Shown: positions 8,393 through 29,900 of the stretch, one piece after another | Layout of the letters: each line of letters begins with the position of its first letter | How positions within the stretch are numbered: position 1 is the stretch's first letter | DNA from: Caenorhabditis elegans | Taxonomy: Eukaryota; Nematoda; Chromadorea; Rhabditida; Rhabditidae | DNA length: 64,000 nt | Direction: 5' to 3' | Assembly: GCF_000002985.6 (NCBI RefSeq) | Contig: NC_003284.9 | Location: 5,208,001-5,272,000, forward strand | The notes under the pieces: model-generated | The model's input: the letters and a program-made list of their open reading frames with translations, nothing else | Databases searched by the model: none | Told to the model about the DNA's origin: nothing | Position numbers and translations under genes: made by a program

Positions 8393-10005
8393 ATGTACGG
8401 ACCATATCCGTACCCACCAGGTAATTAATATACAATTGTGTCCATAACGTATGCATGGATAATTTAAGAGGTTGCTGAGATGATTCAATCGGGCGGATTT
8501 CCATTTGCCATGATGAACCGTGGAATGCCGCCACCACCACAGTGGAATGGTTACCCGGTAATACACCCATACGAATTACACCAGATGCTACGAGTGAGTT
8601 CATTTTTTGTCTTATTCTCTAGCCTTGTCGACACTTGTTTATGAGCTCAATCACTAGAGGAAAAAAGAAAAAAATGTGATGGAAAGACAGAATGACGGAG
8701 ATAATGAGAGAGCGTAGAGAGTAGGGGGAACGGATCACAGAATACAGTGTACAGAGCAACGTTTATCTAGAGCGGCCTGACCTGACCAGCGTTGCACCAC
8801 CGAAACAACACTCTTACACATTAGAAGACACTAGCCAAATATTAATGAACCACGAGTGTCTCATTTTACGGCGAATGCATATTTCTGATTTGATAACTAT
8901 CCTAGAACTTCCATACTTGTGGGACACGTTTAAAGTTAGTAAGAAAAATAATTTAAAACTTGGTGTTCGGTCAATTTTCAAATATGCTTTATTCCAGCAG
9001 TTTCAACAAATGGGAATGGGCCAGTACCAACACGATAGCCCACCACAGCTTCGCAAATTGTTTATCGGAGGTTTGAGCCATGACACGACAGACGAGCAGG
9101 TTTGTACAATTTGACGTTGTCTGGGAGATTTATGTTCATTTCTTGTAGCTCGGCAACTATTTCTCGCAATGGGGACCCGTCGTTGACGCGATCGTAATTC
9201 GTGACCCAAACACAAAGCACTCTCGTGGATTCGGATTTGTTACATTTGCCTCAATTTTCAGCGCCGAGTCGGCGATGAATGACAGGCCACACAAGCTCGG
9301 AGGAAAGACGGTTGGGAATACTTGTAAATCTAGAAATCAAAATGATTTTTTCAATCTTACAGGTTGACTCGAAAAGAGCTATTCCACGTGAGCAAATGTC
9401 ATCAATGATTCCGCCACCATTCTTTGAAACCGATCCAGCGCCAGGATGCAAGCTGCTACTCAACGGAATTACCAACGGCGTGCACTCTGTTGACTCACTA
9501 CGCGTTTACTTTGAAACGTTTGGAACTCTTGATCAAGTTGAGATCCTTGGTCAACCACGTGGCCTTGGATTTGTGATCTATGAAGACAAGGAGTCAGCAG
9601 ATCGTTGTCTAGCTCATAACAGCGGTCGTCATATTGTGAACGAACGCAAAATTGAAGTGCGCGTCTTCACCAAACATCCCAATGGAAGCACTTACTGGAA
9701 GCGTCCTCAATCACAATCACATTCTCAACGTGACCTGTTCGAGCAACTTTCACAGCTTAACCTAAAGGACGGAGATCGCAAAAGTACTGGGAACAGTAGT
9801 TCAGCAGCAGACACACCGCAAAACTTTGATGAGGATAGCAATTATGGAGGTACCACAACGGAGGTAAATTTGAAAAAAAAATTGAAAACTTAGTTCACCT
9901 GCTAAATTTCAGGATGATTGCAATGTATTTGAACATGAAGAAGGATCATCGGAAGAAAGTTCAACAGAACAAACGTTAGAAAATGAAAAGGAAAATTCAG
10001 ACTAG
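8393..10005 (+). CDS. Two-RRM hnRNP A/B / Musashi-like RNA-binding protein
   Basis: Exons 8393-8420, 8469-8593, 8998-9099, 9149-9310, 9363-9863, 9913-10005 give 336 aa. The N-terminus is Met/Pro/Tyr-rich (MYGPYPYPP, then NRGMPPPPQWNGYP). RRM1 (about 70-150) shows RNP2 KLFIGGL and RNP1 SRGFGFVTF. RRM2 (about 175-250) shows KLLLNGI and RGLGFVIY, a weaker RNP1 lacking the usual first aromatic. The tail is acidic and Ser/Glu-rich. By family it should bind single-stranded RNA and act in splicing, mRNA localisation or translation; that role is inferred. The acceptor before 8469 (aatttaag) is weak, but it is the only one that keeps the frame. The 5' neighbour on the same strand also looks RNA-related. 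Confidence 0.88.
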
Positions 10006-12578
10006 ACTTATTTTTCCATCAAACTTCAATTTTATAAACTTCATGCTCAAAACGTCTCCGCAGCTCAAATGCACTATCAAATCTTCTCCATTATCACTGC
10101 ATATTTACCCACCCTTCTCCACCGTCAACATGCTCATATCAATAACAAGTAAAAAAAAACTCTCGTCTTGTCGATTTAGAACCCCCTCTCGCCGTCTATT
10201 TGTCACTCTCCGCCATATGAATCACACAAGTAGTTTTTATTTCAATTAAGAACGAGAAAATCATTTGCTCAAATTTATGGTTAGACAAAAGAAGAAAAAA
10301 AATCACACTTTCAGATCACACATATTCATACCAAAATCATCTCTGAAATGTTACTCAAATCACAAACTGCTAATACTTTTTTTGGCTATTATTTTTCATA
10401 AAAATAATACTTTTCTCTTTGAAAGAGCAGTCCTATTCTAACCTTTTATACATCTGGTCATTTCATTTTTGTATATTGTTTCAACATTGAATGTTGTGAA
10501 TGTTCACCTAAGAACACGCCCCGTTGAAGCAAACCTTTCCTCACATCACGTTATGACTGTACTATGCCTATAATATAATCAAATTTTCATACTTGTCTCA
10601 AATTGTGTCCCATTTCTATCAGATAAGCTTTGTCTGTACCGCCTTCCCCATCCCCCCACTCCCGAATCCTGTTCACTCCTTCTCAAATCTTTCAGTCTTT
10701 GAAATACAAGTAGTGCCTTTGTAGTATGCTCATTGTCACCCTCAACACAACCAGTCCCGTTTAACTTTTTTTTTCTTCAAAAAATTGGTTTATTTTCCTC
10801 TCTCTCTCATTTAATTGTATGCTAATCGAGTGTCTAATGTTGTATACCCCGTCATTTCTCATTTTCTTTCACTCTCTTCTCTTTTTATCAATTCTTTAAT
10901 TACATCCATCAAAACTCCCATCCCTCCTCCACGTACCCGCTTTTTTTTCTCATCTCAGAAAAATTCTAAAACATTCAAAATGATATTCATTTCAAAAACA
11001 TTCACGATTTTCTCTGTTGATAAAAGTCATTGAATTCTCTGTTCTGTTCAGGGTTGAACATGGTTTTTATTGTACAATAAAGATAACTTCCGATTTTCCA
11101 TACATTTTGAAATTTCAGAAAAGTAACTGAACATTCAATACGGAAAGTTTACGAAAAACCTTGCAGATATTATTAGTGTAGCCCCCGACGGATTAATCAA
11201 AAATAATGGATTCATGCAAGAATAATAGATAAAAAGAAAGTTGTCTGAGACGCGCAGAAAAATATTATGCACTTCTACTTTTACAGCCATGCAACTGTTT
11301 ACAATTGATGTATATTCTTACAGTTACAGCTTGTTTACAAAACCTAAAATATGTGTGTACTAATGAAATCTGCCATCAAGTTTGAAATATCACACAATAT
11401 TCAAAAACTTTTTTTTTGAATAATTCAAGATGTCAGCCCGGACTTTCACTAACCTGTTATTTATGTAACACTAAAATATATACAGTCACAGTCATAAAGG
11501 TATGCAAAAACGATGTTTCCGTTAATCAAGCTCATATTATTAATCGTCATAACTCAAAAACTAAAAGATATTTTAAAAATCTGTCAACTAGCTAAATGTT
11601 GTCCATGATCTGTTCTGTAATTTTTTGTAAAATATTTTTCACAAGCATTCCTATGAAATAAGTTACAGTGGCAGACATCTGACAGGCCAGTTTTTAACAT
11701 CCAATCAGAAATCGGCTGAAGCTCATGTATATGTTTTTTCACAGAGAAGGTATTAGTAGCAAAATAATCTACATTACATTTTATATTGCTTGCTTATAAA
11801 AGTTTTGCTCTCACGTCGGCGAAATTTAGTTTTTGAGTTATGACGATTAATAAAATGAGCTTGATTAATGGAAACATCGTTTTTCCATACTTTTATGACC
11901 GTGACGGTATGGTTTTTGGATTCTTTAAAAAAATTAAGTTTATGTATGTATTGATTTGAAAAGAAAATACAATAATGCTACGAAACACATCAGATTAAAG
12001 CAATTCAGTATAATAAAATGTTTCCCATAAAAACATTTAATTAAAAGTTACAACAAATGATTGGAACTACAACATCAAAATTACCAATATGATAGTTTAA
12101 AATAAATTGTTACTGTGCATAATTTAAAAAAATGGAACTGAAACGAGAAAATTAGAATAGAGGCAATTACACAGGCTATTTGCTGTTGGGTGGAAATAGG
12201 CATAGCATTAAAGCTAATTTTACAAAAAAAGAACGAAACAGAGCGCTTTTATTTTCTACAAAAACATTTATATTAGTGATATTAGATCTACGACGGGCTT
12301 GTTTGCTAGCCAATTCTGTAGAGTGGACAACAGGGCTGTATCCGGGAAAAATGTTTTTTTTTGAAGATTTTTTTATGAAAAAAAAGAACTCGAAAAAATT
12401 AAAAATTAAAAAAAAATTGTAATTATTAGATGATTTTGAGAAAATTTGAATTTTTGAGACATATTGTTTGATTCGTGGAAAATGTGTTGCAAAAACATAA
12501 TTATTTGAAAAATCCAAGTATAAACTAAAAAGAAAATAGAAAAATATTCAGCCCCGTTTGGAAAAAGGAAAACGATGT
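10006..12578. other. 3'UTR and convergent intergenic region
   Basis: Pyrimidine-rich sequence follows the RRM stop, and AATAAA at 11086-11091 is a plausible but distant poly(A) signal. Apart from the MITE at 11483-11907, I see only AT-rich sequence with no convincing exon. The two flanking genes converge here. Confidence 0.6.
11483..11907. mobile_element. Palindromic MITE with about 82-bp terminal inverted repeats
   Basis: The left arm begins CAGTCACAGTCATAAA and runs to about 11564. The right arm (from about 11828) is its reverse complement with few mismatches and begins, read inward from the right end, CCGTCACGGTCATAAA. TA dinucleotides at 11481-11482 and 11908-11909 fit a Tc1/mariner-type target duplication. 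About 260 bp of non-coding sequence separates the arms. It is non-autonomous; I do not assign a named family. Confidence 0.88.
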
Positions 12579-15500
12579 TCAGCGGCTGGTTCTCTTTTTG
12601 TTTCTACGTTCACTGGAACGTGACTGGCAAGTCCTGGTGCTCGGCATTTGTTCGCGAATATTGCGGCCCTCCTCTTCGAGTCTCCGATTCTTGCTGCGAA
12701 GTCTTTCGATTTCTCGGTCCTTCCTTTTAATACTTTTCTGCATTTCCGCGTGTTCCCTTTGCAAGTACTCGTTCTTGTTTTTCATTTGTTCATACTCCAC
12801 CGTTGATACCCCGGAATAACCTAAAGTTTTTAACTTATTCATCAAATTTAAAACAGTCACATCGTGAAAACGCAGCTAACAGAATTCGAAACTCAAGAAC
12901 TTACCCCAGGCAGCAATTTGTGCTGGAGATGGGGTTTGAACGGCAAAGTTGTCTGCAAGAAAAAATTATAAGTTCTAAACAATATTTTAGTGACGGTTGT
13001 GATCAACAGTTTTGGCTGCATGTTCAAAATTGGCAAAATGGTATTTGTTTATTAGCTGTACCCCAAAATATTTGGAATGGATGAAATTTCTTGATGGTCA
13101 ACTCGTCAGTAGTCATTCTTATGAAATTTTTGTTTTTAAGCTTACAATTTGAAATGGTTTTTCCTAAACCTAAAATACTAGAAGAATTCCGGGTACATCT
13201 ACTACAGAAATACCAGCAAACATATTTCAGCACTATACATACATACAGAAGAAATGTGGACTAAAATCTCCAACTACAAAGTAATTACTAAGAAAAAGTT
13301 TTAGTTATAAGAACTGCGATTTAAAATAGTGTTACTTACTTGCTGGGCCAACATTATAACGAGCAGAACTAGCTGGACGCTGCTGTTCGGCCGCGACTGA
13401 AAAATCAAAAGTCTCGAATAGCTAAATTCAACATCATCTGATTACCGGATGGCTCTCCATAGCTCGGGCTATCAGGGTTGTAAGTCGGCGAGTGGGGAGA
13501 GTATTCTGTAAAAATCAGCTTCTTTAATGTTTTTTTTTTTAATACATGCAAAAAAAACAATTTTTTAGAAAACAGGTGTTAAAAATTGTAATCTTACCAC
13601 GGTATAGTGGAGATGGTGAACGTGGAGTGGGATCATCTGAAATGAATCTTTTAGATGTTTAAGTACTGAAAAATTTAACTGTTTTTAAATTCTCAATTTT
13701 TAAATTAAAACGCTGAGCCTAAAAATTAATGTAGTTGTAATAACTATTACTATTTTGACCCTTACACACAACGGAATAAATAACGAATAAACGTACCCAC
13801 TTATTATGTAGGCACAATATACTAGATATTTGCCACTCTTTTTCTATCCTATCAAACCACTTCCCATGTTTCTGTTTTGTTCTAAAACATTTTTCACAAT
13901 GACTATTTCAGTTGCTTTCTTATTTTTTCAACTATCGCAAGAATCGTGGAAAATATGTAACTTTTTACTTTCTCAAAAATTCACAATGAAAAACTGAAAT
14001 TATTAGATTTAAAACTGAGTGACTTACTTGGTGGTGCAACATCGAATTGCGAAGAATTCGATGGTAGCTGCTCAGCCGCGACTGGAAATAAGAAATAATA
14101 AAAAATTAAATACTACCCAATCTATGCAGAAAACCTTAAAACTATGAAAAACGAAATTGTAACGCTGAAGCTTTTTTTTTGCACAAAACTAAATATTTGT
14201 GTTCATATTTTGTGTTCATTAAAAGTTTGAACAATTTCACCACAGATATATACAATTTTTTATTTACTAATCTTTTTTCTCAGATATCAAACAGACCTGT
14301 TATTCTTCAAGGGTACATGTATACAGGGTGCGCAAAAATTATGGGGAATCGTTTGCGGCTTCATAAAACCTAAGGTAGAAAAAAATGAAACAAACATTTA
14401 TATGGGTTTTATTCTCCGGAAAAAAATAAACAAAATTCCATTAATTCAAAGATATCTCCATCCGCCTCGATACAGACCCGCACACGTTTCGGAAACGCAT
14501 CAACCGTGGCACGCAAGTAAGGAATTTCAAGCTCGTTCCACACCTTCTTTAGTAATTTTTTCAGTGATTATTTTTTCAGTGACTCTCTAGGTTTATGTGT
14601 AGTTTCAAGCATGTTTTCAATTGGAGGACACTCCATACAGGGTGAGTCAAAATTATGGTAAGTAGTTCCCGTGCTCCATACATTTTTCCAGAAACACAAA
14701 CAACTTCTAACTATACACATTTTATTCACCGTAAAAAACACTATAGAAAAACATTTTAAAGTTCGAAAATATCTCCATTAGCAGCAACACAGGCCTCCAG
14801 ACGCCTAGGGAACGAGTCGACTGTGGCGCGCAAGTAGTTGATATCCAGCTCGTCCCATGCCTTCTTCAGTGAATCTTTCAACGAATCGATATTCCTATGC
14901 GGTTTTGAACAAGCTTTTGCTTCGAGGACACTCCATACTGAGTAATCCATCGGATTGAGATCCGGGGATGACGGTGGCCATTGATTGAAAGCGATGAAGT
15001 CCGGGAAGTTGCTTTCACACCATGCCTGAACGTTCTTGTGCTTATGAGCAGGCGCCCCATCCTGCTGAAAAGTCCATTTTGTTTTTTTGAAATGCTTCTT
15101 GACCCAGGGCATGAGTTCCGTCTTCAACATATCTAAATAGTTGTTTCCGTTAACTTTTATCCCTTGTGGAACAAAAATGAGTGGAGTCTTTCCATTAGCA
15201 GTGATTCCGGCAAAGACCATGATTCCTTTCGGGTAACCAGTACGCTGAACGCGGGAGTTTGGCTGAGTTTTTGCATAAACTCGATCATTTTGCGTATTAA
15301 AAGACTGCTCAATGCAAAATATCTTTTCGTCGGTGAAAAGTACCTTCCTGTGAGCTCCATTTCTGAATCTTCGGAGTAGATTCATGGCACGGTCTTTTCT
15401 CTTGATTTTAGCAGCTTCAGACAGAAATTGACAAGTAGATTTTTTGTAAGCCTTCAATTTCAAGTTGTTTTTTACCATTCGGCACAGAGAACTTTGCGAA

Positions 15501-18365
15501 ATTTTCAATTCTCGGGCCATCGCACGGACCGACCGCCCGGAGTTGTGACGGAAGCGTCCACGAACTTTTTTATCATCGCTGGTGTAGTGACTGTGGGGGG
15601 TTTTCCGCGTCCGGATCTATCGGAAAAGTTGCCGAGCTCCTTGAACCGTGCAATGGTGGTAGAAACAAGTTTTTCAGACACTTTGAGCCGTCGAGCAATG
15701 CTCTTCGCCGCGACACCATTCCTATGAAAACGAACGATGGGTTCACGCATGGGTGACGCTCTCATACCTGCGAAAAAAAAATTATTTTTTAGGAAAAACG
15801 ATGGAAAAATAAATGAACAAAACACGAAATAACATAATCAATTAATTTTGGCGGGGAGACCCGAACCACAGAACTTTCGCGCGCGCGCCTCGACTTACCA
15901 TAATTTTGACTCACCCTGTATACTGTAGTCCATCTGATTGAGACCAGTCTTTTTTGATTTTTTTCGGAGTTTTTCGGAGTTCGGAGTTAGAGTAACACGT
16001 TTACAACGACCAAAACGATCAACAAGCAAGCCTAACTCCGCGAACTGTGTAATTGTCTTGTAAACCAAGTGAAATCGGACATTCGGGCGACGGGAGATGT
16101 TGCGTGCCGAAACACCATCTCGGTAAAAATGAACGATAGATTCACGATGAGGTGTGTGGTCTCATCTTGCAGAAAGTGTATACGTATTTTATGTCAAAAG
16201 AAAGGTAATTATGTCAGCAATCAAATAAAAACAAAAATAATGACAAAAAACGTGACAGCCAACGAAAAAAACGCAAGTTCGCGCGCGCAAAAAGATTCCC
16301 TATAATTTCTGCGCACCTGTATTTTTCGTTTTTGAAATCGTTTTCAAAAAGTCTAAATTTACCACGATGGATGTGATGGATTGATGGATCAATAAGATGC
16401 AATCGAATTATAAATGGTTCATCTAAAATATGATTTTTAGATGTTGAAGTCTTGAAAAGTTTAACTGGTTCATCAGAAACGTGATGAGATGTGTTCATTA
16501 AATTTACGATATTTAGTTGTGTACTCTACGATGTGATGCAAAAATTATGCTCATAAAGTAATAATTAAATTTTCAATTGTTTGATTTTTCTAGTTTATCA
16601 AAAGGCTGTTGGCAATATTGTATTTTCCATACTGTTTCTGACTTTAAGAGTTTAAACGTTAATTAATTAAAATTTTTGAAATAAATTTTTCAGTGTTGAC
16701 GCTTTGGGATACAGAAATTTCAAACGTACCCATCAGTTAATTCTAATGCAAAATTAAATAACTTTCAAACTTGCATTTACTGCGGACACATTGACTTTTA
16801 GATAAATTTATATATATATGTTCAAAATCAAAGAGCTAACACATTCTGTGTAATTTCAAAACTGCAAAAATCGATTTTGTGTTGAATGGTGCTTTCTAGC
16901 AACTTGAAAATTTTGAGGTCATAGCAGTTGAATCAACTTACATTCGTGATCGGCTGGTGGTTCAAATTTTGGGGAAGTACCTGAAAAGCTGGTTTGACAA
17001 ACTCAAACGACTTGGAATACATTTTCGTGCAAAAATCGAACGCATGGTACTCATGTAGTAGCCGTACCGCTAAACTTTTCAACGATTTTTCGAAAATTTA
17101 CTGTGATTTTTAGAACAACTTTTTGTTTAGGTATTTTTGGCATAAAATGTAACTTAACCTTCCGTTTTTTTCGAATTGTCATTTAATATAGAATTTAATG
17201 AGTCATTTAATTTTGGGTTACTGCTACTACATAAGCATTGAAATAATCATTACAGATGGGCAACTCACTTTCATAGATGATTGGCGAGCGACCTGCAAAA
17301 TGTTTTTAAAACTTATTGTAGCCGAAATAAGAAAACATTTTCTATGAAACTAGTTTCTGTGTAATTTTTCAATTGTTTTTCCGTTTTAGTTATTCTTGCT
17401 GAAACATATGCAAGGTTCAAATTTGTTTCAAAAATTGACAATTCACTAAGACTTCGCCTAAAGTTTCCTAAATGTCAAGAAGTTTCCGGTGGTTTCAAAC
17501 TACAAGATTAAAAACAATCAGAATTAGTTGACCAATAATTCTTCAAAACAAGCATATAAATTAGAAAACTCACTTCTATTGGCAATCCTGTTTTCGTAAC
17601 CGGGATTGTAGGTGGGCGAAGTGGTACCTATAAATTATGCACAAATTGTAATTTGGGTAACCGGGATAGAGCATGTTTTTGCGTGATTTCTTCAATAATT
17701 ATTTTTTGAGATATTACCGTATCTAGCCGAATTTTTCAATTAATTTTTGATCAACAACTAGTGGAAAGTTTAGAGCAAATTTCTGTTAAAATAATGTTTA
17801 AATTTCGATTTTAAGTAAAAACTAACTCCACACTGGTTTTTTCATCAACTCGGCTTTTGCAGCGACATCACTTGGAGCTTAAAAGCAAATTTATGTAATC
17901 TCGCAAGAAATTGTAATCACCCGCAGCATAAAGTCTCATGGTTCTAAGCACTGTGAAGCTTAGCGGCACACCGGCGTCTTTCATTTTTCTCTCCCAAATT
18001 AAAAACAAATAAAAGAGTTTTTTAATGGAACGACGTCAAAAAATGTTTTGAAAAAATAAATTTTAACCCTTATCCGAACAATTTATAAAAACTCAATATA
18101 CAAGTGATCCTCGTTTGATTTTTTAAGAGCGAAACACAATTTTTTGAACAGCAAGGATTTGACTGAAAAAATCGAACCTGCTTCAATTTCCTCCAGGTCC
18201 TCCTGCTCCAGATTTTGTTGAGGGTGATAGTCGACGGGTGATGATAGAGACTCTAAAATAAATACATTGAAGTTAATACAAATTAGAGAAATTTCAAACG
18301 GTACCCTGTTCAAAGTCCCCGTCATGTTCATGTTTTGTAGAATGTTGGGTTTCCTTTTCAGACAT
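12579..18365 (-). CDS. CTD-heptad-like, Ser/Pro/Tyr-rich protein with C-terminal coiled coil
   Basis: Thirteen exons on the minus strand: 18305-18365, 18178-18252, 17827-17877, 17574-17627, 17269-17292, 16942-16980, 16363-16422, 14028-14081, 13598-13636, 13446-13505, 13340-13396, 12905-12952, 12579-12820. Together they are exactly 864 nt (287 aa) from ATG to TGA. All twelve introns are phase 1. The acidic start is MSEKETQHSTKHEHDGDFEQ. The middle carries proline-directed motifs SPTYNPGY, SPIIYE, TSPKFEPP, PRSPSPLYR and YSPHSPTYNPDSPSY, the last resembling two RNA polymerase II CTD heptads. The last 80 residues form a charged coiled coil (EYEQMKNKNEYLQREH onward) with a basic Arg/Lys/Ser end. 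Exons 14028-14081 and 13340-13396 both begin VAAEQ and look duplicated. The 16363 exon is the least certain. I do not recognise the family; a nuclear or transcription-linked role is inference. Confidence 0.78.
14638..15918 (-). mobile_element. Inner maT-type Tc1/mariner transposon
   Basis: A 1281-bp element with matching ends: CAGGGTGAGTCAAAATTAT from 14638, and its reverse complement ending at 15918. TA duplications are at 14636-14637 and 15919-15920. It was inserted into the outer element at CCATACTG; the equivalent site is visible inside its own sequence near 14930-14945. It carries one broken transposase gene. Confidence 0.92.
14756..15775 (-). pseudogene. maT (DD37D) transposase, frameshifted
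   Basis: The N-terminal part (15775 down to about 15525) has helix-turn-helix features (VRFHRNGVAAKSIARRLKV), then a proline hinge and GGRSVR. The reading frame then shifts, and the rest resumes as MARELKISQSS (15520) and runs to the stop at 14756. All three catalytic carboxylates are present: D in LFTDEKIF, D in FQQDGAPAH, and D in SSPDLNPMDY. The last two are separated by 37 residues, the maT signature. The break is a one- or two-base indel near 15515-15525. The sequence before 15775 ends in ttttcgcag, so an upstream first exon is possible. Otherwise the copy is nearly full length. Confidence 0.88.
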
Positions 18366-19486
18366 TGTTTCTGCAACAAAATTATTAATATGAGGCCCAA
18401 GTTTTTGAGATAAGAACATCAAAAATGTTAAGTACAGTGACAATATTGGCTCTTATGAATAAATTTCTCATAAATTTACATTTTGAACACTAGATTCCCA
18501 CAAATAACTCTAAATTTTAAATAAGATACAGTTTCTGGCGGTCAACAAAAAAACACTCATCATAGCAAACATTCAAGGAATCTTTTTGCTCAAACTGAAC
18601 TAATAACCAACGTTTGTTTTTTGAAAAATGCGGTAGTAGCATAATACAAACTAACGGCAATCGCAAGTTTTCAGCAAACAGAAAAATACTGAAATTTCAA
18701 TATCCGAGATTCGGAAACTGCCACAATTGTCAAAAAATTTAATGGTCAAAGCATTTCGAATAGTCAAGCAATAAATTTATTGCGTCTCAGAGTTGCTAGG
18801 TAACGTGTATTTCAAATGTTTTTGAGAAAAAAAAAGATTATGAGGTAGAAATGGACTCTAAGTATTATCTTACACCGTTTTAATCTTTTCGTATCTGAAA
18901 AAGAACAGTTAATCCTTTTTGAATATCTTTCTAAAAAGCTTATACTTCAGCAGTTTTCTCAAATTGAATAGAAAAACGTTACTCATTGAAACAAATTCTA
19001 TAACAGAATAAACTGGAAAGTGCTAAGTGTGACCGAGTAATTGGAGAACGGAAGAACTAAGTATTATTCAGCAAAAATAATTATTGTACTCCTTGGTTGT
19101 CAAAAATTGTGTTGCCCAATTTTACAAGTGCCCTGTTGAAAAATCACCTAATCTAAGGCAATTCCAAAAAAGTCTAGTAAATACGAAGATTTTCCCAATG
19201 AGTTCGAAATTTCATTTTTTGCCCTCTGGCGTCTTCGTATTGTCTCAGATACCGTTTTCATATTAGAAACTGGAAATCAGAAAAATATGTATTTCTTTAA
19301 TTTATGTGCCGCACTCTATTGTCCGGTTTGGGAACATGAATTACCACTAGACATGTAAAAGAAATAGAGGCTTTTTTGAAAAATTAAACTGTCAATTCTG
19401 AGGTTTTTACAGTTGGCTCATATTTCTAAACAGGCAAAACGAACAGAGAAACGAAAGAAACACGTCTCTGTGTGGCTTTTTATGTT
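18366..19486. other. Upstream region of the minus-strand CTD-like gene
   Basis: AT-rich single-copy-looking sequence with no exon that I can support. It should contain the promoter of the gene starting at 18365. No TATA-like or other decisive element was identified. Confidence 0.5.
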
Positions 19487-19797
19487 TATTTATTTAATTA
19501 ATATTTATTTATTTGAATAATATTTATTTATTTATTTAATTAATATTTATTTATTTAATTAATTAATTTTTTTTTTGTTTAATATTTATTTATTTATTTA
19601 ATTATTATTTATTTATTTAATTAATATTTATTTATTTAATTATTATTTATTTATTTAATTATTATTTATTTATTTGATTATTATTTATTTATTTAATTAA
19701 TATTTATTTCTTCATTTCATTAATATTTATTTAATTCATTATTATTTACTTCTTTAAATAATATTTATTTAATTAATTAATATTTATTTATTTATTC
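19487..19797 (+). repeat. AT-rich tandem array (ATTTATTTAATTAAT-type)
   Basis: Degenerate units of TATTTATTTATTTAAT. This is the reverse-complement counterpart of the TAAATAAATATTAATT arrays at 21317-21460 and 22935-24170. Confidence 0.9.
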
Positions 19798-19799
19798 AT

Positions 19800-19962
19800 C
19801 GTGACGAGACCCATCGTGGTGAGACCCGTGGTGGTGAGACCCATCCTGGTGAGACCTATCGTGGTGAGACCTATCGTGGTGAGACCCATCGTGGTGAGAC
19901 CCATCCTGGTGAGACCCATCCTGGTGAGACCTATCGTGGTGAGACCCATCGTGGTAAGACCC
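19800..19962 (+). repeat. GAGACC 15-mer satellite, left array
   Basis: About eleven units of CGTGGTGAGACCCAT with few changes. The unit length is a multiple of three, so it reads as an open pentapeptide repeat; that ORF is a by-product and not evidence of a gene. It is the inverted partner of the array at 21829-22346. One isolated unit also occurs at 20628-20650. Confidence 0.93.
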
Positions 19963-19964
19963 AA

Positions 19965-20870
19965 AATTTTGGCGGTAAATTTAAATTTTCTGAGAAAAAT
20001 ATTTTGGCGGGAAATTTAAATTTTCTGAGAAAAATATTTTGGCGGGAAATTCAAATTTTCTGAGAAAAATATTTGGCGGGAAATTAAAGTTTTCTGATTC
20101 TAAAATTCTGGAAATCTAGAATCTTCTGGAAATTTCGAAAAAACTCTGGAATGTTCCAGAACTTTTTAGAAAAAAAAATTTTGGCGGGAAATTCAAATTT
20201 TCAGTGAAAAAAAATTTTAGCGGGAAATTCAAATTTTCAGTAAAAAAATTTTGGCGGGTAATTCAAATTTTCAGTGAAAAAAATTTTGGCGGGAAATTCA
20301 AATTTTCAGTGAAAAACATTTTGGCGGGAAATTCAAATTTTCAGTGAAAAAATTTTTGGCGGGAAATTCAAATTTTCAGTGAAAAAAATTTTGGCGGGAA
20401 ATTCAAATTTTCAGTGAAAAACATTTTGGCGGGAATTTCAAATTTTCAGTGAAAAACATTTTGCCGGGAAATTCAAATTTTCTGAGAAAAAATTTTTGGC
20501 GGGAAATTCAAATTTTCAGTGAAAAACATTTTGCCGGGAAATTCAAATTTTCTGAGAAAAAAATTTTGGCGGGAAATTCAAATTTTCTGAGAAACTTTTT
20601 GTTAGCTTAAGTACCACCTGGAACTGGCGAGACCCATCGTGGTGAGACCCTTAAAAATATGGGCGGGAACTTCAAAATTTATGAGAAAAGTAATTTTGGC
20701 TGGAATTCAAATTTTCTTTGAAAAATTTTGGCGGGAATTCAAATTTTCTGAGAAAAATTTTGGCGGGAATTCAAATTTTCTGGGAAAAAAAATTTTGGCG
20801 GGAAATTCAAATTTTCTGAAGAAAACATTTGGCGGGAAATCCAAATTTTTGTTCTGGAATCAATTTTTTT
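19965..20870 (+). repeat. GGCGGGAAA 34-35-mer satellite with E2F-like sites
   Basis: About twenty units of period 34-35 bp, each with the core TTTTGGCGGGAAATTCAAAT followed by a TTTTC(A/T)G(T/A)GAAAAA spacer. The core matches the classical E2F/DP consensus (TTTSGCGGGAAA), and the adjoining TTCAAA matches a cell-cycle homology region (CHR, TTTGAA on the other strand). A block at about 20095-20170 without GGCGGG carries TTC/GAA heat-shock-type motifs instead. A second such block follows at 20875-20950. Confidence 0.9.
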
Positions 20871-21280
20871 GTTTCAGCACCTTCTGGAAGTTTCAAGAAA
20901 ATTCTAGACTGTTCTAGAATCATCTGGAAAATTCAAAAAAGTTCTGAAATGCTCTAAAACCTCCTATAACTGTAGGAGTTTTTATTTGTTTCGTTACATC
21001 TATATTCAAAGAACTTAGTAGTTAATTATTCAGACTTCTCCAGTTAAGGAAAGTTATTAACTTGTTAAAAAAACTGCAACTCTGTGGAATTTTTTCGAAA
21101 ACCTGATAATGATAATGTGTTAGTAGAAAAATCAGAACATTCTAACTGCCTCTTTGAATTTTCTGAATCGTATACCATGGAAGGGGAAAATGCGATTTAA
21201 TCGATGAAGTTTCAACTTTTTTTAATGAGACATTTTTGAATGATTAAAAGGACATCTATTTGTTATACATTTTAAACTCC

Positions 21281-21500
21281 GCCAGTCGTTGGCCGCGCCG
21301 GAGGCGCGGTCATCGGCTGGTAATTAAATAAATAAATAAATATTAAACAAATAAATAAATATTAATTAATTAAATGAATAAATATTAAATAAATAAATAA
21401 ATATTAATTAATTAAATAAATAAATATTAATTAAATAAATAAATAAATATTGATTAAACCAGCCGCTGACCGCGCCTACGGCGCGGGCAACGACTGGCAC
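21281..21500. repeat. AT-rich array bracketed by GC-rich palindromes
   Basis: Left bracket: GGCCGCGCCGGAGGCGCGGT near 21290-21310. Right bracket: CCGCGCCTACGGCGCGGG near 21470-21488. Each can form a strong hairpin and is followed or preceded by the CAGTCG/CGACTGG word. Between them is (TAAATAAATAAATATTAAT)n. A related bracket with GGCCGCGCCGGAGGTGCGGT occurs at about 51421-51441. Confidence 0.82.
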
Positions 21501-21539
21501 CATTAAAAGTATTTGACACACATACACGCCCAGAATTTA

Positions 21540-21680
21540 CTCGATTTTTCTAGAAAGTTCTGGAACACTCCAGAATTTTCCCGATTTTTCTAGAAAGTTC
21601 TGGAACATTCCAGACTTATCCCAATTTTTATAGAAAGTTCTGGAACATTCGAGAATTTTTTCGAAATTTCCAGAAGATTC
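21540..21680. promoter_or_regulatory. Heat-shock-element-like cluster (inner arm)
   Basis: Repeats of TTCTAGAAAGTTCTGGAACA and variants, three closely spaced copies. Alternating TTC and GAA at 5-bp pitch is the binding-site pattern of heat-shock factor. In inverted orientation the sequence matches the block at 20095-20170. Confidence 0.75.
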
Positions 21681-21828
21681 TAGATTTCCAGAATTTTAGA
21701 ATTTTCAGAAAATTTAAATTTCCCTCCAAAATATTTTTTTCAGAAAATTTAAATTTCCCGCCAAAATATTTTTCACAGAAAATTTAAATTAAAAAAGGAT
21801 TAAAGGTATATTTTTAATTTTGGGTCTT

Positions 21829-22346
21829 ACCACGGTGGGTCTCAACACGATGGGTCTCACCACGATGGGTCTCACCACGATGGGTCTCACCACGACGGGT
21901 CTCACCACGGTGGGTCTCGCCACAATGGGTCTCGCCACGATGGTTCTTCCCACGATGGGTCTCACCACGATGGGTCTCGCCACGATGGGTCTTCCCACGA
22001 TGGGTCTCACCACGACGGGTCTCAACACGATGGGCCTCGCCACGATGGGTCTCGCCACGATGGGTCTCACCACGATGGGTCTCACCACGACGGGTCTCAC
22101 CACGGTGGGTCTCGCCACAATGGGTCTCGCCACGATGGGTCTTCCCACGATGGGTCTCACCACGATGGGTCTCGCCACGATGGGTCTTCCCACGATGGGT
22201 CTCACCACGACGGGTCTCAACACGATGGGCCTCGCCACGATGGGTCTCGCCACGATGGGTCTCGCCACGATGGGCCTTCCCACGATGAGTCTCACCACGA
22301 TGGGTCTCGCCACGATGGGTCTTGCCACGATGGGTCTCGCCACGAA
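21829..22346 (-). repeat. GAGACC 15-mer satellite, right array
   Basis: About 34 units of ATGGGTCTC(A/G)CCACG, the reverse complement of the 19800 array. There is a higher-order 180-bp-scale repeat: the segment starting near 21880 recurs near 22080. Both strands are open for more than 180 codons because unit length is 15; no promoter, splice or codon-bias evidence supports translation. Confidence 0.93.
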
Positions 22347-22373
22347 GATCTCGCAGCAACATTTTTTTAAATT

Positions 22374-22486
22374 TTCCAGAAGGTTCTGGAACATTCCAGA
22401 ATTTTCTAGAATTTTCCAGAAGGTTCTAAAGCTTTTCAGAATTTTCCAGAAGGTTCTGGAACATTTCAGAATTTTCCCGAAGTTTC
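22374..22486. promoter_or_regulatory. Dense heat-shock element array (11 perfect units plus more)
   Basis: From 22374 to 22426, TTC and GAA alternate without a break every 5 bp for eleven units (TTC at 22374, GAA at 22379, and so on to TTC at 22424). A one-base phase slip follows, then further runs at 22444-22461 and 22469-22486. HSF trimers need three units, so this is a very strong predicted binding platform. It lies about 4 kb upstream of the CTD-like gene and within the inverted-repeat block. Confidence 0.85.
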
Positions 22487-22499
22487 CAATTTCCCTTCC

Positions 22500-22860
22500 A
22501 AAGACGGAAAGTCTTTTTTTCCCAAACTACAGTAATCCTATAGTACTCCTACAGTACTCCTACAGTACTACTACAGTACCCCGACCATATTCCACTGCTA
22601 ACCGCAAACCTATATCTCTTCAAAAGACAAAAACTCAATTTTTCCTAAACTACAGTAATCCTACAGTACTCCTAGAGTACCTCTACAGTACTACTACAGT
22701 ACCCCGACCATATCCCACTAATAACTCCAAACCTATATCTCTTCAAAAGACAAAAACTCAATTTTTCCTAAACTACAGTAATCCTACCGTACTCCTACAG
22801 TACTCCTACAGTACTACTACAGTACCCCGCCCATATCCCCCTACTAACCCCAAACTAATA
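22500..22860 (+). repeat. TACAGTAC tandem repeat, period about 120 bp, three units
   Basis: Each unit has AAAGACAAAAACTCAATTTT, then CTACAGTAATCCTACAGTAC-type words, CCCCGACCATAT and a CTAATAACCCCAAACCTATA-like end. Related words occur in reverse orientation at 51290-51390. Confidence 0.88.
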
Positions 22861-24170
22861 TCCCTCCAACAGCCGAAAACGCCTTGCCTGTGTAAGCTAT
22901 GACGTCACTTCTTAACAAACGGACACTATTTTTTTATATATAGGTAATGATAAATAAATATTAATTAAATAAACAATTAATAATTAAATAAATAAATATT
23001 AATTAAATAAATAAATATTAATTAAATAAATAAATAATAATTAAATAAATAAATATTAATTAAATAAAAAATATTAATTAAATAAATAAATAATAATTAA
23101 ATAAATAAATAATAATTAAATAAATAAATATTAATTAAATAAAAAATATTAATTAAATAAATAAATAAATATTAATTAAATAAATAAATAAATATTAATT
23201 AAATAAATAAATAAATATTAATTAAATAAATCAATATAAATTAAATAAATAAATATCAATTAAATAAATAAATATTAATTAAATAAATAAATATTAATTA
23301 AAAAAATAAGTATTAATTAAATAAATAAATAATAATTAAATAAATAAATATTAATTAAATAAATAAATATTAATTAAATTAATAAATAAATATTAAACAA
23401 ATAAATAAATATTAAATATTTAAATAAATAAATATTAAATAAATAAATAAATATTAATTAATTAAATAAATAAATATTAATCAAATAAATAAATAAATAT
23501 TAATTAAATAAATAAATATTAATTAAATAAATAAATAATAATTAAATACCCCAAACTAATATCCCTCCAACAGCCGAAAACGCCTTGCCTGTGTAAGCTA
23601 TGACGTCACTTCTTAACAAACGGACACTATTTTTTTATATATAGGTAATGATAAATAAATATTAATTAAATAAACAATTAATAATTAAATAAATAAATAT
23701 TAATTAAATAAATAAATATTAATTAAATAAATAAATAATAATTAAATAAATAAATAATAATTAAATAAATAAATATTAATTAAATAAAAAATATTAATTA
23801 AATAAATAAATAAATATTAATTAAATAAATAAATAAATATTAATTAAATAAATAAATATTATTTAAATAAATAAATATTAATTAAATAAATAAATAATAA
23901 TTAAATAAATAAATATTAATTAAAAAAATAAGTATTAATTAAATAAATAAATAATAATTAAATAAATAAATATTAATTAAATAAATAAATATTAATTAAA
24001 TTAATAAATAAATATTAAACAAATAAATAAATATTAAATATTTAAATAAATAAATATTAAATAAATAAATAAATATTAATTAATTAAATAAATAAATATT
24101 AATCAAATAAATAAATAAATATTAATTAAATAAATAAATATTAATTAAATAAATAAATAATAATTAAATA
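22848..24170. repeat. AT-rich array containing a 701-bp tandem duplication
   Basis: The 145-bp marker starting CCCCAAACTAATATCCCTCC occurs at 22848 and again at 23549. It includes the CRE-like TGACGTCA and is followed both times by (TAAATAAATATTAATTAAA)n. The 701-bp spacing and shared internal variants indicate tandem duplication of the whole segment. Confidence 0.9.
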
Positions 24171-25412
24171 TCAGGTTGTCCCATAAGTTTTTGTACTATT
24201 TTTTTTTTGAAAAAAATTTATTTCTCTCAAGCGACAAGTAGTACTATTCACACAAGTATTCACCATTAGTGTCCACCACTTGTTGCCATTTACTAGGTAA
24301 CATCATGATGCCACGGGAGAAGAAATCCGGCGAACGCGATGAGAAGAAAGTGGAGAGTTCAGTTTTGAGATGCTCTTCGTCGTCGAATTGCTTGTCGCGC
24401 ATGTAGTCACTGAGAGACAAGAACAAATGGTAGTCGGTTGGTGCAAGATCTGGAGAATATGGTGGATGCGGTAAAACAGTCCAACCAAGATCTTGCAGCT
24501 TTTGGAAAGTCTTCTTGGCGACATGAGGCCTAGCATTATCGTGAAGAAAATATAGTTTTTCATATTTTCCGTTGGTCTTTTCTGCAACTCGGTCCAATTG
24601 GGCACAATAGTAATCAGCAGTGATAGTTTTATTAGTTGGCAACAATTCCCAGTGCACGGGTCCTTGAACACCCTACCAGACACAGATCATAATCTTTTTT
24701 GGGTGAAGATCAGGCTTTGGCGTCGGTATTCCTTTCTCACCGATCGGAAGCCATTGACGTTTTCTGGAATGGTTAACATAGAGCACCCACTTCTCATCTC
24801 CAGTAACCAGATTGTTCAGCCAATCGAACTTTCGACGAAAAGTTAGAAGTTGAGTACAAACGTTGACCCGAGTGAGCTTCTGTGATGCCGAAAGTTCATG
24901 AGGCACCCAAGTTCCAAGTTTTGAAGTAAAACCAAGGCGACCCAAGTGACGTGCAATTGTGCTATGACAACACTCAAGCTTCTCTTCCATTTCACGAAGA
25001 CTAAGACGAGGCTCTTCCTCCACCAGCTTCACTAGGTCTTCTTCATTTAACTCTACCGGTCGCCCAGAACGTTCTATTTCTTCGAGACTGAAGTCGCCGT
25101 TCTTGAACTTTTGAAACCAACTCTTTGCTGTATTATAAGAGAGTGCTCCCTCACCCATCGCACCGCATATGTTTCGTTCCGCTTCCATTGCTGAATGACC
25201 AAGACGAAATTCATAAAGAAGAAGCAATCTAACGTCTCGACGTTCAAGTTTGATGATTGTCATCGTGGCAAAGTAGAAATGGATGAAATGAATCTTTTCT
25301 GAAAGGGGACGACCCGACCTTGACACGACCTACGATGAAAAAATTTTAAAACTTTCTAGAAGTTTTGGAAAAATATTTGAAAAAAAGTACAAAAACTTAT
25401 GGGACAACCTGA
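24171..25412 (-). mobile_element. mariner transposon, 1242 bp, essentially full length
   Basis: Ends TCAGGTTGTCCCATAAG at 24171 and its reverse complement ending at 25412, matching for about 26 bp. TA duplications at 24169-24170 and 25413-25414. It was inserted into the AT-rich satellite, which resumes at 25415. It carries one transposase ORF interrupted by a single stop. Confidence 0.95.
24244..25326 (-). pseudogene. mariner (DD34D) transposase with one in-frame nonsense codon
   Basis: About 360 codons on the minus strand in one frame. The N-terminal helix-turn-helix region includes YNTAKSWFQKFKNGDFSLEE, followed by the linker ERSGRP. Catalytic residues are intact: D in TGDEKWVLY, D in LHDNARPH, D in YSPDLAPTDY, with 34 residues between the last two. 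The only defect found is TAG at 24673-24675, directly after the motif MICVW, where relatives usually have a second Trp (TGG). No frameshift is seen. The copy looks young. Confidence 0.9.
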
Positions 25413-26956
25413 TAAATAAATGTTAATAAAATAAATAAATATTAATTGAATGTTGCAGTAACTATCGGAAACCAGCTAAAATGGTTAGAAAATTTTAAGA
25501 GAGAAATAACAACCTTTAAAATGTTACAGCAGATTAATTTTTCGATGACTGTAAAAATTTCAATTGTTAGAGCTGGCAAAATTATCAAAATGGTACTATT
25601 TTTGATAAGGAAATGGTTCAGATGTTTTATATATTACAATTTGTTACAATGAATCACAATGAAGCTGTGAAAGTATTTGTTTACTGCAAAAGATTTCATA
25701 GAATTTAAGTATAAAAGATATCAACATTATCAAGATTAACAGAGCCAGTATTTACACTCTGTATTTTTGTGTTCCTTCCTCTTTGTTGTTTTAATCAATT
25801 TTTCAAAATATTCACGTTAGTGAATTTTCCAATTTTGAAAAAAATGCTCTGCAATCAACTTTCATGGAATATTAATCATTTCTTGTGTTATTTGATGTTT
25901 AGACGAAGTGGCATATATCATTCAAACCAAAGTTTGCTGCATTTTCCCATCTCTTAAAACACTCGACTTTTCTACAGGTTGTAAATCGGCAACCTACAAA
26001 GAAGAGGTGAACATGTGGTCGACTGAAAAAAAATCTATAAGAGTCCTCGTTCTATTAGGCCCTTCGATAAGTGTTGGGATTTCTAGGGATTCAGGATTCA
26101 CCATTTCAGAGAGATTGGATTGGAAATAAACAATTAACTTGGATAACTTTCAAATGGCAATTATATTCAAACTCAGTACTTTTGTACAATACGTTTATCA
26201 GAGTGCGCATTGAATATGGAACAGTAGTATTTTTCCGTTAAAGAGAAAATGGGGGAATTGTGAGCAATAGAGTTTTCCAAGATCCAAAATCCCAGGTCTA
26301 TAGAAATCTCTTTTTTTAATAATTAATAAGGTTTTAACATTTAACACTGCTCGAAATTTCTTAAAATGCTAAATTTTTGTCAATTTCGTTTTGATTGAAT
26401 CTTAATTTATACCAGAAATCTTAAGTCCTCAGCTGTCCTATGTCCTTGTCGGCCACCTGTTAATTCTAATTTGAGAAGTATAAACTTGCAAACTTTTATA
26501 AGGTTGCATCCTGAGATATGCAAGATCAGTTGAAGAAAAGTGTTTCCCAATTCATTAGATCACACCTATCTTGCAGCATGTAAGAAGGAATAGGCGCTGT
26601 CAAAAAAAAACAACTGAAAAACTTTGATCGTTCAGTTTCTGTAAACATTAGTTCAAACAAGAGCAAAACAAATGGCAATAATTTATTTTATCTTTTGCAC
26701 AGCAATCCGTTTAACTGGTTGTAATACACCCGTTGTTGTAGTTTGAGAAAAAAATACAATACATAATCAAAATGCGATGGCAGCAAAGAATCTGGATTTA
26801 GAAATGATAATAGACTAGAAAATCATATTTAGCAAATGTACTGAGTTTGAGTAGATTTACGCTAGTTGTACACCGAGTTGGAAATAATTGATAAGGAACA
26901 TTTCTCAAAAATTGGATAAAGATGAAAACAAAAATATATGCTTTAACAACAGGAAG
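25413..26956. other. Intergenic region and mtm-5 3' flank
   Basis: A short remnant of the AT-rich satellite, then AT-rich sequence without a supported exon. The two genes either side are both on the minus strand. TTTATT near 26682 (AATAAA on the minus strand) could be the mtm-5 poly(A) signal. Confidence 0.5.
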
Positions 26957-29900
26957 CTAATCACGAATAACTTGTTCAATGCATTCTTTCCATCTAATTG
27001 CTTCATTGATATTTTCAGAGAGTAGTCGATGCGTCTTGTTTTTCATATGAAGCTAAAAATTGTTTATTGTTAAAATTATCCTTAGTGTTCTAAATACCTC
27101 AATCAAACCTCTCCGGCCAGTTTGTTCTAAATTAAAACTTTTAAAGTCCACCAGATCTATACATCCTGATGGCTTCTCAGCAGTTTTCCAGTTCTCAAAG
27201 TCCTCGTAGTAATAGACTTTCGGAGAATCCGGGTACAAAACAAAAAATCGTGGCACCCAAAGTTTAAGTTTGGCTCCTCGCTTGCTCAAGTATCCAGTGC
27301 AAAGTGGAGGAATTGTGTTCGCAGTTGGTGGAGACATTGATTCACGAGTCAACGTATTATTTGGGCTGTGGAGCATTTTTTCAGCTAGAAATGAGATTTT
27401 AAATAGCAAACAACTTGACGTATTTCTTACCTTGTGGGGTGCCTATTTGAATAGCTCCTGAGGGCATCTTAATGTCTTCAAATGGCTTTGCATCCCAGGT
27501 ATGCGTGATGTTACCTATTGTAATGTTACGATTCACACACCCTTCGTGAACGTGAATGCGGCATTTCTTGCAGTGAACAGCTGAAACGAATTAAAAATGG
27601 TTATGTTTTAATTTCGCGAAATTATGGCATATAACTTTGAATGAGCATGGTGTTTTACTTGGGAGGTCTCGCCACGATCTTACTAGGGAAGCGTCTGAAA
27701 ATGCCTAATTTGTTTCTAATTTCTGTCTGACACCACAACCGCCCTAGGGAACTGACAGTACTCCATTCTTGCTGCACTGAAGCTCGCCGCAGCTTTCACA
27801 GCTTGAATTTTATACTCATCCGTTTCTCAGCTCTCAGCATGGGCTTTCAATTGAAACATCTCTCGTTGAAAAGACCGGTTTTACCTTCAGACCCTTTCTT
27901 AGCCAGTTATACTGGCTGCTTCAAGTGACAAGTTTCACAGATTTGTTAATTAGAAGTGAAGTTGACTAAATTTGAATGAACAGTAAAAGCCAGGATTAAC
28001 ACAAAGTACTTTGCAGCTAGTTTCACGTTTTTACGAACGAGTCATACCTTTACTCCATCTTGTTAATATATTTGTACAATAGCAACATTGAACCGGCCTT
28101 GCTCCTACTGTGAATGGCGTCAGTTCATGAATAGTTTCCTTTCTGAAAGAAAACGATAGAATAAGGCAAAAGGCACAAAATAAGCCGTCCTACCCATTAG
28201 ATTCTCCGTTTGTCGTAGTTTTTCTATCTGATGCATCAAATAATTCAGTTAAATAACTTTTCTGCAACAGTCGGATCATGTCCATGTTAGCAGGATCTCG
28301 TTCCGGTGATCTGACGCGTCTGTTCAAGTGTCGCTCATCAATATCAGTATTGTTCAATTTCGACCAGTCTTCTTCTTCTTCATAATCCGGGTCAACTAGC
28401 TGCTGTTCATGCGAAGCCGGTTCTGAACATTTTCAGATATTATATAATTTTTTTTAAATACAAGCTCACCAATATCATACGGGGATCCATATTTCAAATG
28501 TGTTTCTGCCAAAAATGGCCACATATGAATCTGGGGTATAGAGCTCGATGGAATCACAATATCGCCGATTTGTTCGTACAACTCATTATAGAATGCGGCA
28601 CTGACACGATTGCGTAGCTTGATAAATTCCCAGACATTGATGGTGGCAAGATTATCCGGAAGGTAAAACTCATTTGCATCGGACTGTAGCCGTTTCTCTT
28701 CACAATCATCGATAAATGTTCGGAAATAGCCAGCAGTAGAGTGGTATGCCAAAAAGCTGATGTAAAAGTAGGAGAACTCAAATGCAGTTGGGTATTGTTG
28801 AGAAATCTAAATACACACATTAAGTTTTGTGTTGCGTTGTCATCTCTAGTTTTACCTGATACACGCAATCCAAAAAACATATAAAAGAGGGCGAGCTCGT
28901 CTCGGTGTCCTTATGAAAGTAATGACCAAACGCTAGCCATTCCTTCTCGACCAACACTTGAAATCCGTCACATGTTCGGTAATAGGGGTCCGACAAGAGT
29001 TGAGAGAGTGACGAGAGTATGGTTGTGATCGATCGTCCCGCTTCTAAGCAAATAGCTACTGACGAGTTGTAGAGATTCATGAGAGCAACAATCGAATTTG
29101 AAAGTTCAATCATTCGTGACACCTGAAGATGTATTTTATAAATGTGAAGTATTAGAAACTTCTCAAAATTTTGTATTGGGTTTTCATTTCTTTCATTGAC
29201 TTTCATGGTTTCTCATTGTTCATGGTTTTTCATTGGTTAATATTTCAAGAAAAATGATCTAATTTCAGCTAAAATCAACAATACGGCCAATTTTCCCATG
29301 TAGAAGCCAACAGTCAGAATGTTGCTTTTATTCAAATATTATCCGCATAGCACATTTTGGTTGTTTATCACACGTTATTACGTTAACTATAATACAGTTA
29401 TAGCCGACAGGAAACCAAAAATGACAAAAATTGGTTGCCTTCAGAAAGACATATAAAGAAAATTCATAATTTTACTAATAGTGTACTTGTTCAGAACGTT
29501 GCTTCGGCAGTTGTTTTGGGATTGACTAGCTTAATTTTAAAAAAATTAAAAAATCCTAATATAACCAAATATGATAAAAATCTCGAAAAAATCAAAAACA
29601 TACACATTGCGGCCAATTCGACGCGTTCCAAGACTCAAGGAACGATGTTCTATTCTCCACTTGAAACTCGGAACTACAAATTTGACGAGCTCTCTGCAGA
29701 GATCGCCTCAGCTCGGACTCTTTCACCGACCGCACCATAATAGCCTCCGCATTAGAATCTATTGGAATTTTGACACCATGTCCCTTTTCCAAAAGCACAT
29801 AGAGCGCCTTCCGATGGATACGAGTGGTTGGAAACCCGTTGGCTGAAATAGACACAGAGTCATATTTAGCATTAGAGGTTGTAAAACCATTATTTTGGGT

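Follow-up and report, generated by a model that had tools for sequence, protein, structure and literature searches.

The window analyzed here is a 64,000-nucleotide stretch of the Caenorhabditis elegans genome (positions 5,208,001-5,272,000 of contig C6, which has 17,718,942 bases and which we take to be chromosome X), and the genome searches described below covered 100,286,401 bases in 7 contigs. On the minus strand of this window lies a gene of many small exons, whose splice model is given in Table 1. As judged from its translation, the protein begins with an acidic N terminus and continues with a Pro/Ser/Tyr linker that small in-frame exons encode; a coiled coil and a basic tail form its C-terminal part. 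The linker is probably disordered, given its composition. The coiled-coil pattern of exon 11, LHMIKILNLGIM, puts hydrophobic residues at 8 of the 12 a and d positions in the best 42-residue register, a register chosen as best and set against no control. A TTGCAG that ends 5 nt upstream of the exon 1 ATG presumably corresponds to the pattern of an SL1 trans-splice site.

Table 1. Splice model of the heptad-bearing gene, with two doubtful exons; acceptor and donor scores are based on assumed splice-site weights.
Feature	Position	Strand	Remarks
Coding region, whole	12579..18365	-	splice model: 11 exons, 753 nt, 250 aa; very likely H28G03.2
Exon 1	18305..18365	-	MSEKETQHSTKHEHDGDFEQ; weakest donor of 10 (3.1)
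Exon 2	18178..18252	-	acidic; SPVDY inside
Exon 3	17574..17627	-	TTSPTYNPGYENRIANR; first SPTYNP core
Exon 4	17269..17292	-	SRSPIIYE
Exon 5	16942..16980	-	STSPKFEPPADHE
Exon 6	14028..14081	-	AAEQLPSNSSQFDVAPP; exon 9 duplicate
Exon 7	13598..13636	-	NDPTPRSPSPLYR
Exon 8	13446..13505	-	EYSPHSPTYNPDSPSYGEPS; two consecutive CTD-like heptads and Tyr; second SPTYNP core
Exon 9	13340..13396	-	AAEQQRPASSARYNVGPA
Exon 10	12905..12952	-	NNFAVQTPSPAQIAAW
Exon 11	12579..12820	-	predicted coiled coil (about residues 180-231), basic Arg/Ser tail, stop codon
Doubtful extra exon	16363..16422	-	NEPFIIRLHLIDPSIHHIHR, 20 aa; acceptor 7.4, donor 7.9
Doubtful extra exon	17827..17877	-	TPSDVAAKAELMKKPVW, 17 aa; acceptor 5.2, donor 6.0

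The nine exons from 2 to 10 all begin and end in phase 1 in this model, so that each could be skipped or duplicated without a break in the frame. Duplication is visible in exons 6 and 9, where 14088-14006 and 13403-13318 agree at 72% over 86 columns. A scan for open exons with phase 1 at both ends returned 16 candidate rows, which include all of exons 2-10 and, as extras, 16422-16363, 17877-17827 and five shorter rows. The first of these extras is a diverged duplicate of exon 7 (16470-16416 against 13684-13630, 78% over 55 nt, mostly in the upstream intron), and it lacks the SPLY coding motif of that exon. The preliminary description had assigned 287 residues to the protein, a length that corresponds to our 250-residue model plus both 16422-16363 and 17877-17827; as we regard the two exons as doubtful, we keep the shorter form.

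The gene is flanked on one side by a plus-strand neighbor with a Pfam RRM match and a KLFIGGLSHDTTDEQ stretch, as in hnRNP A proteins, and on the opposite side by frames that match DENN, SBF2, GRAM and myotubularin, with a PH match slightly below its cut-off, which we take to belong to mtm-5 (H28G03.6). The other stop-to-stop frames of at least 110 residues in between, one of which was tested for domains, were judged to be transposase or tandem repeat for the most part and otherwise non-coding. H28G03.1 has been described as an hnRNP A1/A2 homologue (PMC7260222, PMC6826867). Taking the RRM neighbor as H28G03.1, and the heptad gene as the first one after it, we name the latter H28G03.2, an assignment that rests on gene order and cosmid numbering rather than on a sequence match and that is very probably correct.

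Mobile and repeated DNA is present both within and beyond the gene. Exons 5 and 6 are separated by an intron that holds what appears by eye to be a mariner/Tc1-like element (14635-15921) with identical 29-bp inverted ends and two overlapping transposase-like frames on the minus strand (15837-15505 and 15616-14756); it is nested in an older element, whose ends at 16322-16290 and 14321-14354 agree at 88% of 34 positions. A second mariner-like transposase lies on the minus strand at 24244-25329, with a Pfam Transposase_1 match for 24244-24672 and a further frame at 24673-25329. The block at 19485-24170 consists of tandem arrays in a roughly mirrored order, in which the arrays of TTTA type, of 15-nt GGTGAGACC type and of 35 nt on one side return inverted on the opposite side.

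Two consecutive CTD-like heptads had been noted at 13446-13505, with no strand given, and frame 1 of either strand translates differently. The heptads are indeed present: they lie on the minus strand in a 60-nt phase-1 exon with TTTACAG as its acceptor and GTAATC as its donor, where the preceding G and the exon together read EYSPHSPTYNPDSPSYGEPS, that is, E-YSPHSPT-YNPDSPS-Y-GEPS. This exon can be skipped in frame, and its donor score of 5.0 is the second weakest of the 10. The peptides that had been cited from three other exons are also exact (17627-17574, TTSPTYNPGYENRIANR; 13636-13598, NDPTPRSPSPLYR; 16980-16942, STSPKFEPPADHE).

We scored the likeness of exon 8 to the polymerase tail with a matrix of 33 heptads from C4:4.255-4.258 Mb, the CTD locus of the gene that we take to be AMA-1. 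These heptads were gathered by the pattern Y.P..P., a choice that fixes Tyr1, Pro3 and Pro6 in advance and omits those AMA-1 heptads that deviate from the pattern or are interrupted by an intron. The exon 8 14-mer, YSPHSPTYNPDSPS, scores 34.5 bits; in a C. elegans sample of 99,344 bases, made up of the window and 11 of 37 loci, six-frame translation gave 95,487 stop-free 14-mers, of which the next non-overlapping one reaches 2.8 bits and exon 8's own one-heptad shift 3.9. In 20,000 composition shuffles of the 250-residue protein the 14-mer score was never reached, and the score of the best single heptad was reached in 12; the pattern Y.P.SP.Y.P.SP arose in none of 20,000 and Y.P.SP in 290. Assuming independent residues over about 2e8 six-frame windows, the genome-wide expectation at 34.5 bits is about 0.01, a figure that SP-rich proteins raise.

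Residue by residue, both heptads carry Tyr1, Pro3, Ser5 and Pro6 and are followed by a further Tyr. Every residue at their positions 1, 2, 3, 5, 6 and 7 occurs among the 33 AMA-1 heptads, so that positions 2 and 7 are fully covered as well, the Asn at position 2 having its counterpart in the AMA-1 heptad YNPTSPR. Position 4, with His and Asp, departs from the Thr, Ser and Ala of AMA-1. The larger differences are of scale and setting: there are two heptads in exon 8 against the 33 collected from AMA-1, and whereas the Pol II CTD is a C-terminal extension of the largest subunit, the heptads here belong to a coiled-coil protein of 250 residues without a polymerase core.

Database searches place exon 8 close to the CTD and outside its Pfam family. 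Against PDB, with E values up to 10, all 8 of the sequences matched by exon 8 are CTD peptides (best E 0.0058), seven of them named as Pol II CTD, CTD peptide or RPB1 and one recognized by its CTD letters only. Together with the shuffle tests and the 34.5-bit score, these matches bear out the CTD-likeness that had been claimed. The Pfam model PF05001 (RNA_pol_Rpb1_R) gives 13.4 bits to exon 8 alone (E 0.095), below its curated cut-off of 20.3, 9.1 bits to a 33-residue context of the exon (E 2.3), and no match to the whole protein; the 15 rows of a genome search with PF05001 do not include exon 8, 14 of them belonging to the AMA-1 locus and the remaining one to C3:3,738,246. On sequence grounds, the exon 8 peptide is CTD-like, yet outside the Pfam CTD family. 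The single row away from AMA-1 is an isolated PSPTSPGYSP-like stretch (C3:3738246-3738272, 16.9 bits against the Pfam CTD repeat) in an open frame of 13 residues, and is probably a chance match.

The remaining linker exons share a shorter motif with exon 8. Exon 2 contributes one instance of the pattern S-P-x(1,2)-[YF] and exons 3-8 another six, which makes seven for the protein, and SPxY is seen four times; neither count was reached in any of 20,000 shuffles. The longer core SPTYNP is found in exons 3 and 8, where its codons differ at 4 of 6 and every change is synonymous, which suggests constraint on the peptide, two copies being no proof. In this form the CTD theme that the preliminary description had extended to other exons holds; true heptad spacing is confined to exon 8.

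These features admit two readings that we consider equally likely. The one that we tentatively favor, developed below, is that the protein is a CTD-mimicking adaptor in the SNA-3/SUT-1 assembly, with a phosphorylated Ser-Pro linker that would be read by a CTD reader. Its chief rival is that the linker is a disordered Ser-Pro spacer, phosphorylated by proline-directed kinases of the CDK/MAPK type, in which the likeness to the CTD is convergent and goes unread by CTD-binding proteins, the coiled coil being the working part. The 12 [ST]P sites of the 250-residue protein fit such a spacer, as does the fact that most exons with S-P-x(1,2)-[YF] lack heptad spacing; the one exon that has it falls below the Pfam cut-off, could be skipped in frame and has a weakish donor. 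A generic spacer does not lead one to expect two heptads in register with Tyr1, Pro3, Ser5 and Pro6 in both, an arrangement that no shuffle produced, nor a second copy of SPTYNP from which the first differs at synonymous sites only.

The SPxY sites might instead serve, with or without phosphate, as ligands for splicing-factor domains of the WW, SH3 or Pin1 type or similar ones. Splicing-factor WW domains recognize the CTD as well as proline motifs, and the fourfold occurrence of SPxY beyond any shuffle would suit them. We nevertheless regard this as improbable, since PPxY is absent, by eye, from the 250 residues and two full heptads are more than such a ligand needs.

Searches for relatives returned little beyond the gene itself. 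Pfam gives the 250-residue protein 4 weak rows, each over the coiled coil and all below their cut-offs (best E 0.022), and among the 8 PDB rows for the whole protein, with E values from 0.2 to 9.6, the last is a CTD peptide and none is a credible relative. A genome search with the whole protein at E up to 10, in which the best candidates were scored, yielded 9 rows, 8 of them its own exons and the ninth at E 0.47; exon 8 alone, with 1 candidate scored, found only itself. A second copy of the gene was not found in the genome, and a distant one could be missed when the best candidates only are scored. Elsewhere in the genome there are 3 DNA matches to 12560-14100, and all of them concern the part of it that forms the intron separating exon 9 from exon 10. 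A scan across contigs of bacterial and archaeal genomes gave 26 pattern stretches and no confirmed relative, as expected, and Rfam gave no match at gathering score in 10001-27000.

This isolation bears on the identity of the gene. The published work identifies H28G03.2 only by its name and UniProt id (H2L0D2), and that gene could still lie beyond 36 kb of the window, in which case the link to SNA-3 would fail and the protein described here would be an orphan with a CTD-like exon. The heptad gene is, as noted, the first past the hnRNP A-like RRM gene in the direction of the DENN/SBF2/GRAM/myotubularin gene, and its want of a Pfam family above cut-off and of a credible PDB relative agrees with the published remark that H28G03.2 has no homologues outside nematodes; a mistaken identity is therefore quite improbable.

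The GFP::SNA-3 pull-down from embryos that PMC9303266 describes enriched eight proteins, with H28G03.2 discussed among them; it is described there as lacking a known function and homologues outside nematodes, and only it and TIAR-2, among the eight, interact with SNA-3 in an RNase-resistant manner. The corresponding section of PMC11229312 lists H28G03.2 as highly enriched with SUT-1::GFP, along with SNA-3, NCBP-1, NCBP-2, SRRT-1, TIAR-2 and PIR-2; the published pull-downs were made from embryos. From these data H28G03.2 is a reported partner of the SNA-3/SUT-1 (SmY snRNP) assembly with CBC-ARS2, an assembly that the two studies place with the cap-binding complex at the 5' ends of nascent transcripts (PMC9303266, PMC11229312). 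Leaving SUT-1 aside, NCBP-1 was the sole SNA-3 partner whose RNAi altered an SL1 reporter, according to a passage that does not list each knock-down by name (PMC9303266). This result counts against a required role for H28G03.2 in trans-splicing, and the passages of that paper on the assembly attribute neither a role nor a reporter effect to H28G03.2 itself. The term CTD does not occur in the main texts of PMC9303266 and PMC11229312, and their pull-down sections name neither a CID protein nor P-TEFb among the partners; our literature search found nothing joining CDK-12 with trans-splicing. Recruitment of ARS2 has the consensus [DE][DE]G[DE][ILV] (PMC10720265), and this ARS2-binding motif (ARM) is absent, by eye, from the 250-residue protein, the nearest approach being H-D-G-D-F in exon 1, two positions off. 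The EHDGDF in which it lies (exon 1, 18305-18365) is thus a near miss of the motif in a protein whose presumed partners include CBC-ARS2.

Short mimics of the CTD are known from yeast, where Trf4, Mpp6 and Sen1 carry NIMs that are bound by the CID of Nrd1 (PMC4186968, PMC7110113). The Trf4 mimic, which ends Y-N-P-Y-T-L, binds this domain at about 1 uM, some 100-fold more tightly than phospho-CTD, and excludes CTD binding; what is recognized is a Tyr with negative charge on its N-terminal side, after which Trf4 and the CTD form an S/N-P-x-x turn, whereas the Sen1 mimic is extended (PMC4186968, PMC7110113). The worm protein has the same Tyr and S/N-P-x-x in YSPH and YNPD of exon 8 and in YNPG of exon 3, where YNPGY resembles the YNPY of Trf4; in both systems the Tyr-Asn/Ser-Pro turn is short, and the RNA-processing partner that bears it is presumably disordered there. 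As for charge, an acidic EDLEEIE lies upstream of the exon 3 site and a single E precedes YSPHSPT, and the place of Ser5 is taken by a serine that would need a phosphate. The two systems differ in that NIMs have a fixed acidic stretch, whereas here Ser-Pro stands upstream of Tyr, at several sites, and phosphorylation would be needed. By analogy, SPTYNPG and SPTYNPD would match the elements recognized by CIDs, with the spacing of the CTD, if their Ser-Pro were phosphorylated.

A nematode protein with a CTD-like heptad is already at hand in C. elegans PIE-1, whose motif, YAPMAPT, has alanines in serine places and which also has a CCCH zinc finger. The exon 8 heptads keep serines where PIE-1 has alanines, and the zinc finger has no counterpart in the Pfam scan of the 250-residue protein. 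PIE-1 has been reported to block Ser2 phosphorylation (PMC11094015). A decoy of this kind, in which the heptads would occupy the CTD kinase P-TEFb/CDK9 and repress transcription, had been proposed in the preliminary description and is very improbable: the heptads are there and the coiled coil matches HEXIM1 in PDB at chance level (E 8.1), but that match ranks under geminin and other chance-level rows, the partners reported for H28G03.2 (SNA-3, SUT-1, CBC-ARS2 and TIAR-2) are 5'-end processing factors, and, because both heptads, YSPHSPT and YNPDSPS, keep Ser5 and the first also keeps Ser2, they are not of the non-phosphorylatable PIE-1 type and should be phosphorylated rather than block.

The two other functions that had been suggested, a scaffold for CTD-binding proteins or a kinase substrate, fit best among the three proposals, since Ser5 is kept; both binding and phosphorylation are predicted. 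In the adaptor reading that we tentatively favor, H28G03.2 would be a component of the SNA-3/SUT-1 assembly, which is found alongside ARS2 and the cap-binding complex on nascent transcripts, and its coiled coil would either dimerize the protein or dock it on SNA-3 or another partner. We infer that CTD-type kinases could phosphorylate Ser-Pro sites of the linker, which would then present pSer-Pro-x-Tyr-x-Pro with the spacing of pSer5-Pro6-Ser7-Tyr1-Ser2-Pro3 in the polymerase tail. The reader might be, in the first place, a CID protein (Pfam CID matches fall at 6 places in the genome, in 7 rows that are all above cut-off) or, next, capping enzyme or a CTD phosphatase, and it would then be exchanged between the polymerase and the trans-splicing assembly at the 5' end. 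Rather unlikely as it stands is the further proposal that the SPTYNP sites, when phosphorylated, rival the Pol II tail as ligands of a CID protein or capping enzyme and so transfer the 5'-end machinery from the polymerase to the SmY/SL1 snRNPs.

A partner of SNA-3 and SUT-1 that bears CTD heptads would offer a direct and cheap test of how nematodes couple spliced-leader trans-splicing to transcription. If the competition proposal is true, H28G03.2 would be a nematode-specific CTD mimic in the SL1 trans-splicing assembly and an animal counterpart of the yeast NIMs.
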